Shown in pieces: positions 15,013 to 64,000 of a stretch of 64,000 nucleotides of DNA (positions are counted from its first letter, which is position 1; each line of letters opens with the position of its first letter). Under the pieces are notes generated by a model. The model had not been told where the DNA came from. It worked only from the letters and a program-made list of their open reading frames with translations, and ran no database searches. The translations under genes and the position numbers were made by a program. Source of the stretch: Anaeramoeba flamelloides (Eukaryota > Metamonada > Anaeramoebidae); NCBI GenBank assembly GCA_027625915.1, contig JANTQA010000012.1:1705001-1769000 (forward strand). The letters are read 5' to 3'.

Positions 15013-15699
15013 TTAAGGGTCTAGTCATTTAGGGGTGAAAAGGCACCAGACTCAAGGGGTGGCCTGAGACCAAAAAGGGTATTGTGAAATAGCCCTTCTT
15101 TTGGTTGACAAAATTCAAATAACAAAAAAAAAAAATTTCATAGATCTCTTTGACAAAAAATTAAAGGAAAAAAAAGAGTTCTCAATTTCAAAAAATCAAA
15201 ATATAAAAAAAAAAATTCATCTTTTCTCATTTTCTTATTCAAAAGAGGTTAAATTTCTTTAATTTAAAACAAATTGCTTTCTTGTATTTCGCAATCAATT
15301 TTATTCGATTTAGCCTGATTTGTGGTTATTTTAAAACCCTCTAAATTTGACCAAGAAAGGATCAGGTAATAGTCTTTCAATAAAAATAACTCATTTGAAA
15401 AAAGAAAAAAAAGAAAAAAAAAGTCACCGAGATCTCAAAAAGCGCCAAAGAGAGACACTTCAAAACTGACATAGTTGTTTTCAGAATTGTAATTCACAAC
15501 CATTCTAATTGGAAATTGAGTGTCGCTCTTTGGCGCTTTTTTCTAAAAATATCCTCATTTTTGGTTGTTGATTTTTGGAGATCGATCGTACATCATAGGT
15601 TGGTTGGTTTACGATTGGTGTTAGGTCCTCAATAAAATTACTAAAAAGTTTTTTTCCATTTCAGAATAAAAAATTTCACCGTAATGACTCGACCCTTAA
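15013..15699. repeat. TTAA element R1, copy 1 (687 bp)
   Basis: Ends TTAAGGGTCTAGTCATTT (15013) and, reverse-complemented, TTAAGGGTCGAGTCATTA (15699). Further copies lie at 51065-52970 and 61731-63319; all share the internal blocks AATTTAAAACAAATTGCTTT-like, TTTGTGGTTGTTTTATAACA-like and the terminal 150 bp. No transposase is encoded, so it is non-autonomous. Inside is a near-perfect 23-bp stem (15437-15459 with 15519-15541). Confidence 0.75.
15437..15541. repeat. Conserved internal stem of element R1
   Basis: Arm AAAAAGCGCCAAAGAGAGAC (15437 on) pairs with its inverse at 15519-15541, with one mismatch in 23. The same positions in the other two R1 copies are degraded. Confidence 0.7.
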
Positions 15700-35393: not shown

Positions 35394-36172
35394 TATAAAC
35401 TGAATTTCAAAATTTGGGGCAGATTTTTTTCGAGAAAAAATATCATCGAATCATAATTTTTTGAAAAATAAAATTCATTTTATTAAACTGTTTTATAGAA
35501 GAGAAGAAACAAATAGAAATATAAACGTATGTATTAAAATCATTTTATTATTTGAAAGAATAAAGAAAAAAAATTTAAAATTCGCAAAAAAAATTTGCCC
35601 TTCTTTTTGAAATGGAAAATTTTTAAAAATGTCCATTTATCGATTCTCCATTGTGTTCTACAACTAATCTTAACCTTTTCTCCATTGAACTAACCAAATT
35701 CTCAATAACCCCCCATTCGATATTCTTCCAAACTCTTCTAACAATCGCTTCAAGTTTTTTTTCAGTTTTGGGTGCTTCTAAACTAATTCTTTTACCCATG
35801 ATTCCCCAAAGATTCTCAATTGGATTGAGATCCGGCGAATTGGGAGGCCAATTTTCCAAAACTGAACATTTCTTTGATAAGTATTCTTTTGTGGACCTCG
35901 ATGTATGTGCAGGAGCACCATCCTGCATCAATATCCAATTCCATTTTCCAAATTCTTTATCCATATCTGTGAACACTCGACAACGCGAAATTACCTTTTT
36001 TTGATAGCTTTCGGAATTAACAATTTTTGGACATTTAATTAAAGTCGATATCCAACTATAGTTAATTCCACCAAAAAACATAATTTTTTTTGCCATACTT
36101 TTCCTTTTCGCGAAAAACAGAATCTTTAAAAAAAGAAAAAAGAAAATTACAAAAAAGCAAAATTAAATTAAG

Positions 36173-36203
<31 letters not shown>

Positions 36204-37176
36204 TTATGGTATTAAGATTGAGAAGTTTGGATCTTTGTTTTACAAATTGTCATCAAAAAAGTCATTTTTAGACAATTTTAATTTTTCGTGATCACGTAGT
36301 CAAAATGATGTGATCCACAACCTATGAATCTTACTAAAGAATCCAATTGAAAAAAAAAAAAAAAAAAAAAAAAAAGATAACCTTCATTTTCCCCCCATTG
36401 TCTCCAAATAAACCCATTGAGACTTTCTAAATAAAACCACGTTTCATCTGTAAAAACAACCTTTTTCCAATCTGTATTATTTTCTATGTGATATTGTGCG
36501 AAATTTAATCTTTTCTGTTTTGTTTGTTCTGTTAATTTTGGTTTAACTTTTGGAGCTTTATATTTAAAATTTAAAGATTTCCTAATCCTCCAAACTGATG
36601 TTGCACTGATTTCAATTTCTCGTGTTTCTTTTAAAAATGTTGCTAATTTTTCACAACTCAATTTTCTATTTTTTTTTGTTTCATTCTCGACAATATCAGT
36701 AATTTCATCAGATTTTATTCTTTTTCTACCTGTTGATTTTGTAAAGTCTAGTGTTCTAAAAAAAATTTAAAAAACAAAATTAAAATAAAATCAAAACAAT
36801 TGAATTAAAAAAGGATTAAATACCCTTTCATTTCAAATTTTTGTTCCCAATATCGAACTTTCTTTATTGTTATTCCCAAGTTTTGTGCAATTTTACTTCT
36901 TGAAATGCCTCTATTTCGAAGTTGAACAATTTTGAGTTTGTTGATACTTTCATTTATTTCTTTCTGAATTTGTTTCATTTTAAAAAGGGGGAAAAAAAAT
37001 AAAAAAATGAAAACGAAAAAAATTTAAATTTTTGAAAAATAGAAGACTATTTTTGAAAATTAAGATAAAATATGTTTGATAATCCTAATACCAATATGAT
37101 ACAATCATTAATTAATTTCTCAAGTTTAATTTCATAAAAAAAAAATTATGCCCCACATTTTGAAATTCAGTTTATA
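35394..37176 (-). mobile_element. Tc1/mariner transposon with TIRs and TA ends (1.78 kb)
   Basis: The left terminus TATAAACTGAATTTCAAAAT continues TTGGGGCA; the right terminus (reverse complement) is TATAAACTGAATTTCAAAAT continuing GTGGGGCA, i.e. 27 of 28 matching, with TA at each boundary. The interior encodes one minus-strand transposase of the Tc1 type (next entry). Both termini are present and the coding parts are well preserved, so it is among the younger elements in the window. Confidence 0.88.
35623..36978 (-). CDS. Tc1-family DD34E transposase with intron(s)
   Basis: Exon 1 (36978-36824) gives a helix-turn-helix: IVQLRNRGISRSKIAQNLGI, then TIKKVRYWEQKFEMKG. A 68-bp GT...AG intron (36823-36756) joins in frame (GGA codon) to exon 2 (36755-36382): TLDFTKSTGRKRIKSDE, a second HTH region (SCEKLATFLKE...SATSVWRIRKSL), and the first catalytic Asp in VVFTDETWF. 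The C-terminal exon (from about 36125 to 35623) holds FFGGINYSW, the second Asp in LMQDGAPAHTS and Glu in SPDLNPIENLWG, 34 residues apart (DD34E). Between 36381 and about 36125 lies a 250-bp stretch with a T22 run; a GT donor is clear at 36381 but I find no AG acceptor that keeps the frame, so this junction is either unusual or has an indel. Confidence 0.85.
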
Positions 37177-49641: not shown

Positions 49642-49758
49642 GAGATTTTTTGAAGTGGACTTGAGAATCTCTTATCATTTTTTTAACAATTGCAAGTGCA
49701 ATATTAATTCTTTTTGTAAAAAACTATTTTTGTTGGTGAGCAATAGTTTCATTTTACA

Positions 49759-52700
49759 ATGAGGATCTCGTCTACTATACAATTTTTTATTGTTCTGATT
49801 TCTCTAACATTATTTCAGAAATGTTATTCTGTTCCAGACGAACAGCTGTATGATCTTTTAGGTTTAACTTCTCATTGCACAGCTTCCGAAATTGAAACAG
49901 CCTTTCAAAACCTTCAAAATGAATACGATCACTCCAAAAGCCATAAAAAAGCATATCAAGATCTTTACCAAAATATTCAAACTGCATACTCTATCCTTTC
50001 AAACAAAAACAAACGAAGTATATACGACACAAAAGGTTTGCCGGGTTTACAAACAGCTGGGCGAGAGAATAGTATTATAAAAAGTAATAACAATATGTTT
50101 GGAAACTTTGGTAACTTCTTTGGTGGCAATGTAGAAAGTGAAGGAAACAGTTTTACCATCTCTTTTGGTGGTAACTCAAGGACCGTCCGTAGTAACAGTA
50201 GAAATAATAAAAAAAAAGGAAACAGCTACAAATTTGCTCTCGATGTTTCCCTCGAAGATATCTATAAAGGTTGCAAATTGAAAATCCCCTATACTAAAAA
50301 TGTTTTAAAAAGAAGAGGATCTTCAGATTTGATCCGTAAAAATACAGAACTCGAGATCGTTATAAAGCCTGGTACCCCAGATAAACGTGAATTTGTATGT
50401 TTTCTTTTTTTTGCTTTGTCCTTTCTTTTTCTTTCCTTTTCTTTGAGTGATTTTTTTTTTATTCAAATTAGCCGACATCATCAACTTCGACTTTTAAAAA
50501 AAATTTTAAATTAATTTTTTACATCCAAATTTATCACAAAAACCGAGACTCCTAATCAAATAGTTATTCAAATTATATTCAAATCAAATTTAGATTCACT
50601 TTAAATTAAAAGCTATTGGTAAAATACAGTCCTTGTACTTTTTAACTTTGACTCCAAAAAATTTAAATACTGGTATTTAAATTCAGAAACAGGAAAAAAT
50701 TTTCACTCAATTTTCAATTTCTTCTTTCAAAATATAGATCCCAAATTACAACAAACTTCTGAGAAAACTCTTTTTATTAAAGACAAATATGGAAAATGAA
50801 GTGCAAAATTTTGTTCCATTTTAGAATTCAAATCCCAGTAAACAAAAAAAATCAAAATAAACACAAAAAAATCATTGAAACACAAAAAAAGATTGTTCGT
50901 AATCACTCACAACCTCATTTTTCAACTCAAACACTAATCTTAAAAAAAACAAAAACATTTTGTGTCCTATCTTAAAGAGTAGTTCCTGAAAAAAAAATTT
51001 TTTTGTGCCTTATTTTGATTAATTAGAGTGTGCGTTAAAAAGTGCGTATACTGTATTATAATTATTAAGGGTCTAGTCGCTTTTCGTGAATTTACACCAA
51101 ACCCAAGGGGTGGCTTACTAAAAATGATTATGTTAAAATTCATCTTCTTTTAAGGGACTAATAACCAGATAAAAAAAACCATAAAGTAAATTTAATAGTA
51201 AATTCAAAAAAATTTTACTACACCTTGAAATTGAAAAACGAAGTTAAAAATCTGATTACTCCTATATCAAACTTACCTTTAATGTTATTTTCTGAAATGA
51301 ATTATTGTTTTTAAAAGTTTGATCCATTTTCCTCCTTTTTTGAATATCTAAAATCCAACCTATATTTTCAAATTATTTCAAAATCAAAGTTATTTTCTTT
51401 GAAGAAGAAAGAAATCCTATTGTCTGCAAAGAAGAGTACAAAAATATCCTTTCAAAAAAATCAAATCCCTAAGTTTTGATCACAGAACTCAATAAAAAAA
51501 ATCCGAAATTTCAAAAAAATTACAATAATTATTTTAAACTTGAAAAAAATATAATTTATTTCTTTATAGAACAGATTTTGAATCAATTTTTTCTTTTTGT
51601 TTCCCAACAAAAAAATACTAAAAAAAACAACCAAATCATTAAGATAAAACTATTATTTGAAAAATACTTTTTTAAAAACCTGTAAAATTCAACTAATAAC
51701 CTAAAAGAAATATGTTTTAATTTGATTATTTACAAATCAATAATTAATAACCCAATCTTAATTTTTTTCAGTGAATTATTGAAAACCCAAAGACTTAAAA
51801 TTAATCAATAGATTTTATTTTTTCACAATTTTATAAAGATTTTCAAACAAATCAAACTATTTCAAATTAATAATTCGAATAAAAAATAATTTTAATAAAT
51901 ATTATCAGTCCTGATTTAAAAAATAATAGTTCGTTGTTTATCCTCGGAATATTTGGAAAAAAAATATTAGATATTCTTTTAAATTTCAAGAAATTAAATA
52001 AATTATTATGAATAAAATAAATGATAACTCATTTCTCTAAAGTTGATAAATGGGTTTGCTTATTGGGATTAATCGAATCCTTGTGTAAATAAGTGCACTA
52101 TTATCTTTGGGAAAATAAATACATTAGAGTTAATAGTCTCTTAATTGAAACAATTCGAATAACAAAAAAAAATAATTAAAAAGAAATTCTATTAAATATC
52201 CAAATGATTTTATTATTGAAAAATTCAAATAAAAAACCAAAAATCCATTGGATCTCAATTACAAAAATTCAAAAAACAAAAAAAAATTCAAAGAATTTAA
52301 ATTGGCAAGATCTTATTTACATAAATGCAAAAAGAAAAAAGATTCCAAGATCTAAATTACACAAAAATTCAAATAAAAAAAACAAAAATTTCACAGATCT
52401 TCAATTTCTAAAATTCAATTAACAAAAAAAAAGTTTAAAAGAGATTCTCAATTTCAAAAAATTCAAATTTAGAAAAAAAAATTAACCTTTTCGGCTTTTG
52501 TATATGCGCCTGGTTAAATTTCTTTAATTTAAAACAAATTGCTTTCTTGAAGTACAAAAATCTATTTAATTCAATTTAATTAAATTTGTGGTTGTATTAT
52601 AACACTCTATATTTGATAAAGTAAGGATTTTGTAATATTCTGTATGATAAAATTACTCATTTGAAAAATGAAAAAAAGAATTAAAAAAACTCGAGATCTC

Positions 52701-55085
52701 AAAAAGTGGCAAAGAGTGACATTTCGAAACAGGTATATTTATATTTCAATATTATATATTCACAAAGATTTAAAATTGAGAAATGTGTGTTGTCACCCTT
52801 GTGCTTTTTTTCTAAAAATGTCCTCGATTTTCATTGTTTATTTTTTAGAAATCTATCATACACCACATGTTGATTGTGTTTTTGATTGATATTAGGTACT
52901 CATAAAAATTGCAAATCTCTAATTTTCCATTTCAAAAAACTTTTTTCACTATAACTACTTTCCCCCTCAAAGGGCGAAAACAAAAATGTTTTATAAAGTA
53001 GCTCTAAACCAATTTAAAAAAAAAAAAAAGAAAGTGATCAATATATCTAACAATTTCTCAAACTTTGTGATTTTACTTTTTTAAAATTACCAAGATTTTA
53101 AAAACCTCATATCCCATTTCCAAGAGGTTTAATTTAAATGAAAGCCTAGTAGATTCCGGGATTGAAAATCATTATTATTAATGATTCAAGCGAAATAAAG
53201 CTATGAAAGAGTTTTTTTATAAACAATAGTTTTCAAAATTTCTTTGTAAATCAAGTGAAAAATATTTACAAATTTATTGGGGTTTATCAGTATTTTCAGA
53301 AATATATTAAAAACTCTTATGTTACACCTTTGAAAAATGACTTGAAGAAATTAGCATTTTAATCAACTAAAAAATTCTAATCCTCCTATTCTTTAATCGT
53401 TTACGAACCACGAAGCTTAAGCTTAATTTCAAAAAGAGCGGTAAATTTTTTATCCGAAAAAAATTAGTTTAATTATTTTTTTTTTTTGAATAATCATGTA
53501 TTTTACTAAAGTGTTTAGAGATAATAACCAATACAGATTAATAAATAAAAATATATGTAATCATTTTATTTTTTCAGAGACAAATGAAAAAAGAGAAAAA
53601 ATTAATAATAAAAAAGTTTCCCCTAATTTTGAAATTTGGCTTAGTCAATCATCTGAAATTCCCGTTTCCCTTAGAAAGAGGATTTTTTTTCAAAACCGAT
53701 TTACTCTTGGCTGAACAACAAGAAATTAGAATGTGTTTGTCACTTTTTTTCTAAAAATTAAGGTAATTTTACTTGAGGGTTTTTGTTGGCCATCTTGTAT
53801 TTTCTTTGATAAAGTGAAATTGAAAATTAAATTTAGGTTAAACCAACTTTCTCAAAAATTGATAATTTTATGGTAGGGTTACTTTAAATTGAATCTTTAT
53901 TTATTTCCAATTGAAGGAAGAAACTGAACTAAAATTCAAAATTCTCCACATAGTTAAAACAGTGAAAAGATAACAACAACACAGTTTCCTGAAATATGGA
54001 AATAATTTTGATTTTTGTAAAATATAACAATCATTTTTACATCTTTTAATTTTTTTGTTTTCTCATTTCTTTTTTTTGAATTACTTAATCTGTTACCCTT
54101 GATCGAAGAAATTTTCTTCAAATAATTGATATTCGGTTAAAGTTGAGTTCTTTTAAATAGAAAAACTCAAATAAAATTAGTTGATGGTATATAACGATCT
54201 GATCGATCAACCATTGTTAATAGAATTCCAACAATTTTACTAATGTATTTTTTTTTTTTGCTCTCTCCAAAATTTTTTACACACCCTTGATTTATTAGTA
54301 TTGATAATTTTGATAAATATTTATTTTTTTGTTGTTTGGAGGTTGTAAATGATAAATAATTGATAACATTACAATTAGTAAACGGTTCTAATTTGGTATT
54401 TCTTTTAGTAGTGATTAAATTAGATTTTTTTTTTTCAAAAATTGAATTTTAGTTTGTTAAAAATTTTGAATTGGAGCTTATATCCAAAAATTTTAAACCT
54501 TTTTTTTTTTTTTTTGAAATAATTAATACTTTTTGAAAAAGTTTGAAATAAAAAATCAAAGAATAAATCAGTCATGTATATAATAATTATTAAAGAAACA
54601 AAATCCACTTTTCAAATGCTAAACTCATTTTTTTTTTTTAATGTTTTTTTTTCACATTTTATAATTTAATTGTATGTAATTTAATATTTGTATTTATTTA
54701 AATTCGTTTCTCATAGAAATTTGAAAAAGCAGCAGATGAAGGCGAGAACATAATACCAGGTGATATTATTTTTGTTTTAAATCAGGCAGAAGATCCAATA
54801 TTACAAAGGGATGGCAGCCATCTCATAATGGAAACAGAACTAACGTTATATGAAGCATTAACCGGGTTTGAACGTGAATTTGAGCACCCCAGCGGAGAAA
54901 TGACTACTGTAACTTCAAAAACAGTAACTAAACCTGGTATGATGAGAAAATATCGTGGATTGGGAATGCCAATTGAAGGAACCAAGAGAAAGGGGGATCT
55001 GATTGTTACATTTAAAACCAAATTTCCAGAATCATTTACAGAAGAAGAAAAAAATAAAATCCAAAAAATCTTTAATGATAAATAA
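49759..55085 (+). CDS. ER-lumenal DnaJ (ERdj3/DNAJB11-like) with a 4.3-kb intron and no HPD
   Basis: Exons 49759-50394 and 54717-55085 join in phase 0 at GT(50395)...AG(54716); the junction reads PDKREF/KFEKAADEG, exactly continuous with the DnaJ C-terminal domain. The 334-residue product has a signal peptide (residues 1-24, ending KCYS), a J domain (about 26-92, EQLYDLLGLTSHCTASEIET...QTAYSILSNKNKRSIYD), a Gly/Phe region (NMFGNFGNFFGGN), and CTD I and II (LDVSLEDIYKGCKLKIPYTK; NIIPGDIIFVL; LYEALTGFEREFEHPSG; RKYRGLGMPIEG). The J domain lacks HPD: the site reads EYDHSKSH. Without HPD it should not stimulate Hsp70, so it may act only as a substrate-binding chaperone. No Cys-rich zinc finger and no C-terminal retention signal. 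The intron is packed with transposons. Confidence 0.9.
51065..52970. repeat. TTAA element R1, copy 2, with nested insertion
   Basis: Left end TTAAGGGTCTAGTCGCTTTT; right end CTACTTTCCCCCTCAA (terminal TTAA mutated to TCAA). Similarity to copy 1 covers the first 90 bp and the last about 550 bp. The 51150-52144 segment is extra and has its own TTAA termini. Confidence 0.7.
51150..52144. repeat. TTAA element nested in R1 copy 2
   Basis: Starts TTAAGGGACTAATAACC; the reverse complement of its right end is TTAAGAGACTATTAAC. It sits where R1 copy 1 has none, splitting the R1 block that ends ...CTTCTTTT from the one starting CAAATAACAAAAAAAA. Confidence 0.55.
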
Positions 55086-60602: not shown

Positions 60603-63600
60603 ATGCAACAATTTGCCTTTATAAAAGACTATCATTTTCTCAAATTAAAGAGAAATACAGAAAGGGGGCTGATTTATACATCCCTGCACAAGAGGACTTC
60701 CGCAAAGGTAATTTTATTTTATTCACATTTTATTAATTAAAAAAACAATTAAATGAATTATTGAAGGTTATTGAACATTTTTTTTTTTTATTTTTTTCTC
60801 ATTACAAAAAGGTTCTAATTCATGTGATCAAAAAAACGTCAAAAGATCAAAAAGCCTGTAACAACATTTTAAAAAGCATTGAAACGATAAAAAACTTTTA
60901 CCATTCCAACTTATTAAATTTTCTGGAGTTATATGAAAACAAAAAGAATTGGATAATTGTAGTTGAATATTTAAAGGGAAACAACTTACACGAGTGGCTA
61001 AAAAACAAGAAGAAAACAAATCAGAATATTAACCTACCTAAAATTTTTGCACAGTTATTATTATGTAAGCATTTTTTTCTTTTGATTGTTAATCTATCGA
61101 AAGATTATTTTTTTTTTTCTTTTGGTCGAATTACATTGTTTGAATGAATGAAATTAAATGAATCTTCACAAAAACTTGTTTGTTGAGAATAGAAAATTTT
61201 GATGTGTGAAAAGAAATTTTGATCTTTGGCTACAGCCGATTTGAGAAATATAAAGTCTTTTTTCAAAGTTTTACTCAAGTTTTCGATTTTTAAAAAGTGA
61301 AAACCGTTTTTTTTTTATTGAGATTGCCAGAATTAAAACTGTTTGAATGGTTTTCGATTTTTTTAAGTGAACAATTGGGTTTTAAAAGTGGTGCAGAGGT
61401 TGGGGTGTGAAGAAAAGCACTTTTTTAAAAAAAGTCCGCACTTTAGAAAAACATCAAACTTTTTAAAAAAGTGTGAATTCTTACAAAATCTTAAAAAAAA
61501 AAATTATTCACTTTTTTGAAAAGAGTTGTATCTAATTTCGAGTTTAAAGTTGCTGATAAAACCCAACAAAAAATTAATCTTCCTTTTCAAATGCAAAAAA
61601 AATAATTTTTTTTTTCTCAATTCTGGATTTTAAAAGATTTGCAAAATAAAGTCACAAAAAAATAATAAAGTTAATACCACAAACTGTTACGCACAAATTT
61701 TTTCCTCTAAAATATCACCAGTAATACTTTTTAAGGGTAGCCACTTATTGTGTATTTGATATATGCTCAAGGGGTGGCTTTCAACTCGAAAAGGGATATT
61801 GTGGACTTGAACTTCTTATCATTACCATTGTGAAAAAAATTTGGGTCATTAAAAAAAATTGGGTCAGTCAAAAATTTGTTTTCGTTTTTTAAATAGTAAA
61901 TATTAGCAAAATGATTTTTGATCAAAGTAAAATTTTATGAACAAATCTTACATTTAAGAAAAACCAAAGTCACTATCAATAATAATTTTCAAAGGCAAAA
62001 TTATTTCGTTGCATTTTGTGCTTATAGAATTACTGTGGAACTCTAAAAAACAAAAATTTATTTTTAATTGTAAACTTTACTAAAAATGTTGATTTTTTTT
62101 ATTAGATTACATTCCAAGATCTAGTTAATCATTGTTTGGGAAGACCAAAAATTAATAACCGTTTTAAATTAAGGTTTGTCTAAAGGGGATTTTAAGAATT
62201 TAAATGGTTTCTGAAATCTTGATATTTCGGTATTTTGAAGTTTTGATTGTAAACATTAGTCGAAAACAATCTCTTTCGAAAAAACATCTTTTTTGGAAGA
62301 TTTTATAATTCAATTTGATTTAAAAGGTTATTTAAGATTAACCGTGATAAATTTGCCTTCATTAACAATGATAAATATCTTATTGAATTAATAGATTTTA
62401 ATATTTCCTATTAAATATTTCTCTTATTTTTAGTAAAGTTTACAATTAAAAATAAATTTTTGTTTTTTAGAGTTCCACAGTAATTCTATAAGCACAAAAT
62501 GCAACGAAATAATTTTGCCTTTGAAAATTATTATTGATAGTGACTTTGGTTTTTCTTAAATGTAAGATTTGTTCATAAAATTTTACTTTGATCAAAAATC
62601 ATTTTGCTAATATTTACTATTTAAAAAACGAAAACAAATTTTTGACTGACCCAATTTTTTTTAATGACCCAAATTTTTTTCACAATGGTTATATAAAATT
62701 TGATTAACACCACAACTTTTAACAAATACTCGATTTGCAAAAAATCAAAAAAAAAAAAAAGTTTAAAAATATTCTCAATTTCAAAAAAATTCAAATTAAA
62801 AACAATCTCAATTACAAAAAAATCAAATTTTTAGAAAAAAATCTGATTTGTACATTGTATTATCTTTACAAATGCTTAAATTTCTTCGATTTAAAACCAA
62901 TTGATTTTTTTCCGTCCAGCATCAATTTAATTCAATTTGATCTAATTTGTGGTTGTTTTATAACACTTTACATTTGACAAAGTAAGGGTTTTTTTTAATA
63001 GTCTTTCAATAATAATAATTCATTTAAAAAATAAAAAAAATGAAAAAATAAAAATCTTTGAGCTCACAAAAATACCAAATAGTTACACTTCATAACAGGT
63101 ATATTTGTTGTTTTCAAAATTAATAATTCACCAAGATTTCAAATAGGAAAATAAGTGAGTGATTTGGCGCCTTTTTTCTAAAAATGACCTTGTTTTTCAT
63201 TGTTAATTTTTTGAGATGGATCGTTTATCACATGTTGATTGGTTTTTAATTGATATCAAGTATTAACAAAAATTTCCAAAAAAATTTTTTTTCGCAATTA
63301 TAAATGTAACCTGAATTAATTTTTTTTTATTTTAAAATTTTTTTCATTTTTTTTTTTTTGTCTTAAAAAGATACTGTATCATATTTCTTTAAATTTAAGC
63401 AAGTACTCCACCAAAGTGAGATAAAAAATATTTGTTTTTAACCAATATGTAAAGATCCTATTCTTTTTTAACTCTCTGAAAGGAAATACAATTTTTACTA
63501 ATTTAAAATTAAAAATTTACCTTTTTAATTAATTTGCAAAGATCAAGAGTATTTTCTACATATTATTTTTCAAGGAAATTTTTTTTTTATGGGTACACAT

Positions 63601-64000
63601 GCATAAAATTGATGTCTTTATATTTTGACTAATATATTGCTTTAAAAAAATAAAATTCAATAAACCAGATACGGAACCAGATATATATATATAATATTTG
63701 TGAACATATAAATATATATATATATAACACTCAATACTTGCATCATACAAAAAAAAAACAATTAATTTATTTATTTATTTTTTATTCATACTGAAATCCT
63801 TTTTTTTCTTACTCTTTTAATTTAATAGTACTTGAATATTTTGATTCAAAAAAATATTATGAATGTAAAATAACCCCTTTAAATATCATTGTAGATAAAA
63901 ACTCTCAAATAAAAGTCGATTTGTCTTGCCTTTTCCCTGATCTTTTGAGTAATTATTATCTAAATCTACAAAAAAATGATTATCTCCATTTTACGAAATT
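60603..64000 (+). CDS. Pseudokinase-like protein kinase homologue, three exons visible, runs off window
   Basis: Exons 60603-60707, 60812-61064 and 63829-64000+ join in phase (0, then 1) at GT...AG introns of 104 and 2764 bp. The protein reads as a kinase N-lobe and catalytic loop: YHFLKLKRNTERGLIYTSL (Gly-loop position, without GxGxxG), VLIHVIKK (beta3, Lys42 in the VAIK position), ILKSIETIKNFYHSNLLNFL (alphaC Glu, then HPNI-like), WIIVVEYLKGNNLHEWLKN (hinge), PKIFAQLLLLLEYFDSKKYY (alphaE). Then comes ECKITPLNIIVDKNSQIKVD where active kinases have HRDIKPENILVD...K(V/I)xDFG: the HRD Asp is Lys, and DFG reads DLS. Asn138 and Lys42 remain. So it is probably catalytically dead. The 3' part lies beyond the window. 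Confidence 0.8.
61731..63319. repeat. TTAA element R1, copy 3, hosting a foldback element
   Basis: Left end TTAAGGGTAGCCACTTATTG; the right end near TTAA 63316-63319 is degraded. The shared right half (62745-63290) aligns with 15140-15660 and 52430-52960. The block CTCAAGGGGTGGCTTTCAAC near 61770 matches copies 1 and 2. Confidence 0.65.
61824..62689. repeat. Foldback element: 264-bp inverted arms, 338-bp loop
   Basis: Arm 61824-62087 (ACCATTGTGAAAAAAATTTG...TTTACTAAAAAT) is the exact reverse complement of 62426-62689 as far as I can check by eye. The loop (62088-62425) is unrelated AT-rich DNA with no long open frame. Every other repeat here is diverged, so identical arms mean a very recent event, gene conversion between arms, or an assembly artefact. 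Confidence 0.9.

Follow-up and report, generated by a model that had tools for sequence, protein, structure and literature searches.

A probable AMPK-related pseudokinase with UBA-like and KA1-like regions among active and catalytically dead paralogues in Anaeramoeba flamelloides

At the downstream end of a 64,000-nucleotide stretch of the Anaeramoeba flamelloides genome—hereafter the window (G000:C13:1705001-1769000, within a searched genome of 254 Mb in 76 contigs)—lies a gene on the plus strand whose predicted product resembles a protein kinase with altered catalytic motifs. Exon 1 (60603..60707), assigned from its translation and a GT border, runs from the start codon to beta1-beta2. It is followed by a 104-bp phase 0 intron (60708..60811; GT..AG) that ends directly 5' of the beta3 strand. 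Exon 2 (60812..61064), placed by Pfam Pkinase and by alignments, covers beta3 to alphaE, and intron 2 (61065..63828; GT..AG), 2764 bp long and in phase 1, interrupts alphaE. The last 172 bp of the window (63829..64000) form the beginning of exon 3 and encode the end of alphaE, the loop ECKITPLN and a degenerate DFG region. A preliminary description had joined these exons in phase and placed exons 2 and 3 2.76 kb apart, in agreement with the borders measured here; the product that it took from the window is indeed in frame, but counts 176 rather than 177 residues.

Extension past base 64000, a check which that description had proposed, revealed a frame that remains open up to a stop codon at G000:C13:1770891. 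The remainder of exon 3 (L033:30-2092, plus strand) completes the C-terminal lobe (C-lobe) of the kinase and continues into a UBA-like region, a Lys/Ser-rich linker with the sequence SPRQIKR and a KA1-like C-terminus, yielding an 806-residue product from three exons. The exon 3 frame comprises 687 codons without a stop; at the stop frequency of the downstream flank (5.5-8.5% of triplets per frame), the chance probability of such a frame is ~7e-24. We infer that the gene is spliced, translated and folded.

Alignments to BRSK2, to other kinases and to a home-made kinase profile (k1) revealed that nearly all residues required for catalysis have been replaced in the window protein. The preliminary description had taken the beta3 lysine (K72) to be kept, a reading that we reject: VAIK corresponds to VLIH, with His in place of Lys. 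In the same alignments the alphaC glutamate reads Ser. The glycine loop in exon 1 is degenerate (LKRNTERGLIY). HRDLKPEN corresponds to ECKITPLN, such that HRD reads ECK and its aspartate (D166) is gone, while the catalytic-loop asparagine is retained, both as described earlier. The DFG region, KVDLSCL, is likewise changed: it reads LSC when ungapped and DLS with a one-residue gap, and neither is DFG. In the exon 3 alignment the DFG columns are gapped, and the DLS reading would keep the aspartate. The APE columns of that alignment read SNY, arguing against the window protein being an active member of the MARK/SAD/SIK group.

Despite these losses, the kinase fold remains recognizable. The full product matched Pfam Pkinase at 59.1 bits (cut-off 31.7) over its residues 22-263 and profile positions 13-263 of 263; exon 2 alone scored 37.7 bits. 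Exons 1 and 2 together reached 45.0 bits with Pkinase and 41.8 with PK_Tyr_Ser-Thr, and adding the first 57 residues of exon 3 raised these scores to 54.0 and 56.3 bits, bearing out the kinase fold order previously read from the joined exons. Its best solved relative is BRSK2, to which the N-terminal stretch aligned from BRSK2 residue 15. To judge the join of exon 3, we compared it with 669 decoy 3' exons (29 from the same stretch, 23 from its reverse strand and 617 from elsewhere in the window). Scored with two home-made kinase profiles, no decoy equalled the gain that exon 3 brings (7.0 versus 4.4 for the best decoy with one profile, 14.8 versus 8.5 with the other), and we therefore do not regard the join as a chance choice. 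Profile k0, built from the top matches of the joined query, carries a slight circularity, while k1, mainly from viral-contig kinases (24 loci), gave the smaller decoy margin.

To place the gene among its relatives, we searched the host genome with the 176-residue product. This returned 117 matches which, beyond the gene's own three exons, were pieces of 20-35% identity; many stopped near residue 118-128, corresponding to the exon 2 border. As that query carried only the first 57 residues of exon 3, closer exon 3 relatives may be missed. A further search, with a dead paralogue from contig C1, gave 128 matched places. From these, together with L041 and the window, we read 40 exon 3s and aligned 36; L100, L102, L103 and L105 were dropped as partial or further split (L100 and L102 have DFG, while L103 and L105 start past it). 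Because places resembling a dead member were chosen, and at least nine alike places left out, the sample is biased and gives no genome-wide rate.

HRD and DFG are present in 23 of the 36 aligned exon 3s, whereas 13 lack the HRD or the DFG aspartate: the window gene, L064, L065, L066, L067, L072, L073, L074, L075, L076, L086, L093 and L099. Judged from these sequences, the host genome holds at least twelve catalytically dead MARK-type relatives of the window gene. In the twelve sisters, HRD is replaced by HGN (seven cases), HGC, HGF, FGD, YLN or FGN, with the HRD histidine retained in nine, and ten keep FG after an altered aspartate (LFG, NFG, TFG, SFG or YFG). The pair L086/L099 reads FGD/FGN at HRD and WKH/WKN at DFG; L086 thereby retains an aspartate at the HRD position and lacks DFG. 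Exon 2 was read in six dead sisters. The beta3 lysine is kept in one (L069, VKVK), and the remaining five read VKVS, VKVN, VIVE, VKVI and AKVI.

Many paralogues, active and dead alike, share their intron borders with the window gene. Among 16 loci, picked because their exon ends could be named, the intron 1 acceptor lies directly 5' of the beta3 valine codon (8/8 genes examined). For intron 2, donor (8/8) and acceptor (12/12) likewise keep one codon position, in phase 1, from gene to gene; each count includes the window gene. Four of the 36 aligned exon 3s (L083, L087, L088 and L096) read through alphaE with no intron. A different intron pattern, with a border inside the HRD motif, was seen in L044, L046, L051, L052, L055 and the dropped L100 and L102. 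When neighbouring exon 2 and exon 3 matches are taken as one gene, intron 2 of the paralogues ranges from ~0.1 kb (C1) to ~7.6 kb (C30), making the 2.76-kb intron of the window gene ordinary. Its length, which had been presented as exceptional, is therefore not a special feature; several paralogues and a DnaJ-domain gene in the window have longer introns.

The regions downstream of the kinase are informative as to its type. In the active paralogue L041, matches to SIK3 (162.8 bits) and MARK2 (160.3 bits) run through the UBA domain. Scored with a profile built from six dead paralogues, the C-lobe and UBA-like region of the window protein reached 24.7 bits, with 7.1 the best of 1000 shuffles. 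Pfam UBA_7 was found in dead L065 below the Pfam cut-off (E 0.016), and the active L082 gave no Pfam UBA match at E<=0.1. Between the UBA-like region and the tail, a linker motif, SPxQ[IL] with KR or ER after it, was picked up by a fixed-pattern search in seven of eight full exon 3s, the window gene included; L075 has the variant SPRQMKR. In active L077, L080 and L082, the UBA region is followed by L[ST]PKIMR[IL], which resembles the SPxQ[IL]KR of dead members.

The tail of the window protein scored 30.0 bits against a KA1-like profile of seven others (24.9 bits in the context of the whole protein), the best of 1000 shuffles reaching 9.6. At E<=1, a profile of eight tails (seven dead plus the window protein) matched four PDB sequences, each of them a chain of MARK1 or MARK3 that aligned across its KA1 domain (E 0.0076 to 0.38). 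Three of the eight tails matched Pfam KA1 (best E 0.00073), and other families had weak matches in one or two each. By way of the paralogue profile, a putative KA1 domain can be placed at the C-terminus of the window protein, pointing to the AMPK-related MARK/SAD/SIK type. A genome search with Pfam KA1 (E<=0.1) returned 20 places. Nine of these, at or above the cut-off, follow exon 3s with HRD and DFG, in an open frame whose length equals that of the exon 3 concerned: C33:10814447 (kinase L081), C48:20035666 (L077), C33:15792754 (L078), C24:1423303 (L090), C32:2563517 (L082), C30:3160211 (L094), C43:2076419 (L095), C51:947585 (L101) and C11:1161297 (L092). A tenth, below the cut-off, goes with L104.

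We further asked how the dead genes relate to one another. A mixture-model tree of 38 exon 3 rows (the 36 genes, MARK2 and SIK3) separated the 13 dead genes from the 23 active ones plus MARK2 and SIK3 with branch support 98/98, and FastTree returned the identical split (0.971). Within the dead group, the twelve other members parted from everything else, the window gene included, at 85/84. When exon 2 was included for ten genes, the resulting tree again set the six dead apart from the four active ones on one branch (100/99), and the window gene adjoined the active side (97/95), its highest identity being 25%. The dead group would fit one single loss of catalysis; alternatively, catalysis may have been lost separately in the line of the window gene.

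Ratios of nonsynonymous to synonymous substitution rates (dN/dS), computed with our own Nei-Gojobori script and without a significance test, were 0.22 for L065/L066 (0.17 in the kinase-UBA part), 0.27 for L073/L074 (0.24 in that part), 0.47 for L075/L076 (only 282 codons), 0.30 for L086/L099 (only 260 codons) and 0.20 for L065/L067 (223 codons, with a near-saturated dS of 1.3). Three active pairs gave 0.06, 0.05 and 0.18. The dead members of the family are constrained, though less so than the active members.

As to the surroundings of the kinase, intron 2 had been called transposon-filled. It does contain an 864-bp inverted-repeat element (61825..62688) and a dispersed repeat of ~550 bp (62738..63290), yet together they fill only roughly half of its 2764 bp. 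The element has arms of ~263 bp—part of inverted stretches of 267 bp (61821-62087 and 62426-62692) that differ by a single mismatch—ends in CCATTGTG..CACAATGG and is flanked by TTA on both sides. TTA flanks were found at all three copies with both ends found (four loci fetched, the window copy among them); L107 and L108 are further copies, and element length is 863-864 bp. When the left 340 bp of the element served as query, 1290 candidates arose at first look and 40 were scored; the 41 matches listed include at least 40 near full-length ones of 98-100% identity, suggesting a young family. The element is a candidate PIF/Harbinger-type miniature inverted-repeat transposable element (MITE), a kind which it resembles in its terminal inverted repeats, its TTA target duplication and the lack of a long open frame seen in it, and from which its long arms set it apart. 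The dispersed repeat is ~73% like window positions 52362-52910 and 15117-15655, the former within a 4.3-kb intron (50395-54716) of the DnaJ-domain gene (49747-55085; phase 0, its open frames running up to 50394 and on from 54717).

The gene content of the window is eukaryotic (TBCC, NKAP, papain, actin-like, ArfGAP and DnaJ), its GC content is 17-30% per 2 kb, and no tRNAs were found within it. A Tc1/mariner-like transposase piece occupies 35623-36766 on the minus strand, with DDE_3 at 35626-36162; by eye, the adjoining frame 36278-36766 resembles the N-terminal part of the transposase in another frame. Viral-contig scans covered the window cysteine protease, for which no relative was found there, and the kinase profile; relatives of the window kinase were sought within the host genome. 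Elsewhere in that genome, Ribosomal_S13 (PF00416) has 15 copies (30 matches, two exons per copy). For this one family examined, the number fits the ribosomal protein expansion of A. flamelloides, for which more than 1100 ribosomal protein genes are given, as against 82 in A. ignava, in an excerpt of the published account (PMC11550330).

Taken together, the window gene likely encodes a pseudokinase of the AMPK-related type (MARK/PAR-1, SAD/BRSK, SIK) with kinase, UBA-like, basic linker and KA1-like parts, one of a dead group of at least 13 genes. The pseudokinase identity, proposed in the preliminary description and strengthened here by the open rest of the gene, by the complete C-lobe, by paralogues with which it shares intron borders as well as C-terminal domains, and by the 12 dead members among the 35 other paralogues aligned, is very likely. 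The action in trans on active paralogues, argued by analogy, is tentative at best. In function, the protein is probably a regulator of signalling, and not an enzyme or the product of a broken gene. It would transfer no phosphate and would not bind Mg-ATP in the usual manner; through its KA1-like end and basic linker it would attach to acidic membrane lipids, and the body of the protein would scaffold or inhibit active paralogues in trans at the cortex. A dead paralogue at the membrane could compete there for partners or keep active paralogues switched off in trans.

The analogy draws on two systems, each through excerpts of the published report. When mutated, KA1 of PAR-1 no longer lowered the activity of PAR-1 lacking KA1 (PMC6451319), which argues that KA1 can inhibit in trans. 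The authors of that report concluded that KA1 is autoinhibitory, with membrane binding relieving the inhibition in their model (PMC6451319). In SAD, the UBA domain and an autoinhibitory sequence (AIS) keep the kinase off, and AIS-KA1 binds acidic phospholipids and acts in trans as an inhibitor of the kinase domain with UBA (KD-UBA) (PMC4686854). Still more speculatively, the host may have evolved a layer of dead PAR-1/MARK/SAD-like proteins with UBA-like and KA1-like modules that regulate an expanded set of active MARK-like kinases in trans at the cortex, with the window gene as its most stripped member, possibly a pure adaptor.

Several observations weigh against the reading as a pseudokinase that acts in trans. 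SAD KA1 alone is neither inhibitory nor lipid-binding in the excerpted report (PMC4686854), which makes the action in trans slightly more doubtful. The window protein gave no Pfam UBA match at E<=10, neither it nor its tail matched Pfam KA1, and dead exon 3s were absent from the 20 places of the genome-wide KA1 search. It lacks the HRD histidine and, in both DFG readings, the phenylalanine; both residues are kept by most sisters, and given their loss the fold may be distorted. The gene sits on a very long branch, of 1.9 to 3.4 changes per site (~3.3 in the 38-row tree), which leaves its place among the dead paralogues unsure. Selection is measurable in the sisters only, the window gene having no close copy (others are 20-35% identical), and the excess of the dead pairs (0.22-0.47) over the active pairs (0.05-0.18) fits relaxed constraint too. 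Both gene model and function are predictions from DNA sequence.

Many of these points would suit a decaying, non-functional copy of an active MARK/SAD-like kinase, its frame still open by chance: the gene is the most divergent of the 36 rows on its long branch, structural residues have gone along with the catalytic ones, no close paralogue was found, the intron carries a transposon and dead pairs evolve faster than active ones. Such a pseudogene seems nonetheless improbable. All 806 codons are open across three exons with both introns in place, where a neutral frame at 20-25% identity to its relatives should have gained stops, and the tail and SPxQ[IL]KR motif are retained in a gene whose sisters are under purifying selection. 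WNK and SelO are known cases of rearranged active sites. An active kinase or transferase whose rearranged site is invisible to alignment could draw on nearby lysines (VIKK after beta3) and on the aspartate of the gapped DLS reading; with the lysine, alphaC glutamate, HRD aspartate and glycine loop all altered together, and with sisters altering HRD and DFG in several ways, we consider this very unlikely.

The hypothesis to which we give least credence splits the gene in two, exons 1-2 and exon 3 being separate genes brought together by a false join in the assembly or by an acceptor that lies at 63829 only by chance. The exons are 2.8 kb apart, and their join is predicted from sequence. Moreover, exon 3 alone—as 57 residues or as the whole 686-residue frame—matched no Pfam kinase family at E<=10, and its first 57 residues matched nothing in the PDB at E<=10. 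The kinase similarity expected of exon 3 thus emerged from the joined gene and from paralogue profiles, but not from exon 3 by itself, which we discarded as stand-alone proof. Yet none of the 669 decoys equalled its gain, intron place and phase are the same in paralogues, and exon 3 matches paralogous exon 3s, all of which speak for one gene.

Among known systems, the window family is closest to MARK/PAR-1, SAD/BRSK and SIK (CAMKL), sharing the order kinase, UBA-like region, linker and KA1-like end: the window protein matches BRSK2 best, active L041 matches SIK3 and MARK2 best, and the KA1-like end resembles that of MARK1/3. It differs in that the window gene and its 12 sisters lack the HRD or DFG aspartate, the window gene also lacking the beta3 lysine, alphaC glutamate, DFG and APE. 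STRAD, SCYL and Tribbles are classical pseudokinases that pair a dead kinase fold with a regulatory role, a likeness that would extend to the role proposed for the window protein; to our knowledge, none has the kinase-UBA-KA1 order. Narrow literature searches, in part over titles and abstract openings among the papers listed, found no dead multi-gene kinase set that retains both the kinase/UBA-like/KA1-like order and the intron borders seen in active relatives. Large sets of dead kinases do have precedent in such lineages: in Giardia, also a metamonad, most copies of the expanded Nek family are catalytically dead, 139 of 195 lacking K72, D166 or D184, and 156 have expression evidence, according to excerpts of the kinome report (PMC3218828). 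That expansion concerns another kinase family, with ankyrin repeats in Giardia in place of the UBA/KA1-like regions seen here; a Pfam scan of the window protein found no ankyrin, and its best match is BRSK2, not a Nek. The window family is comparable with the expansion of dead Neks in Giardia, though in a different kinase family, and its active and dead paralogues, side by side in one genome, offer material to test the roles of UBA and KA1 without catalysis.

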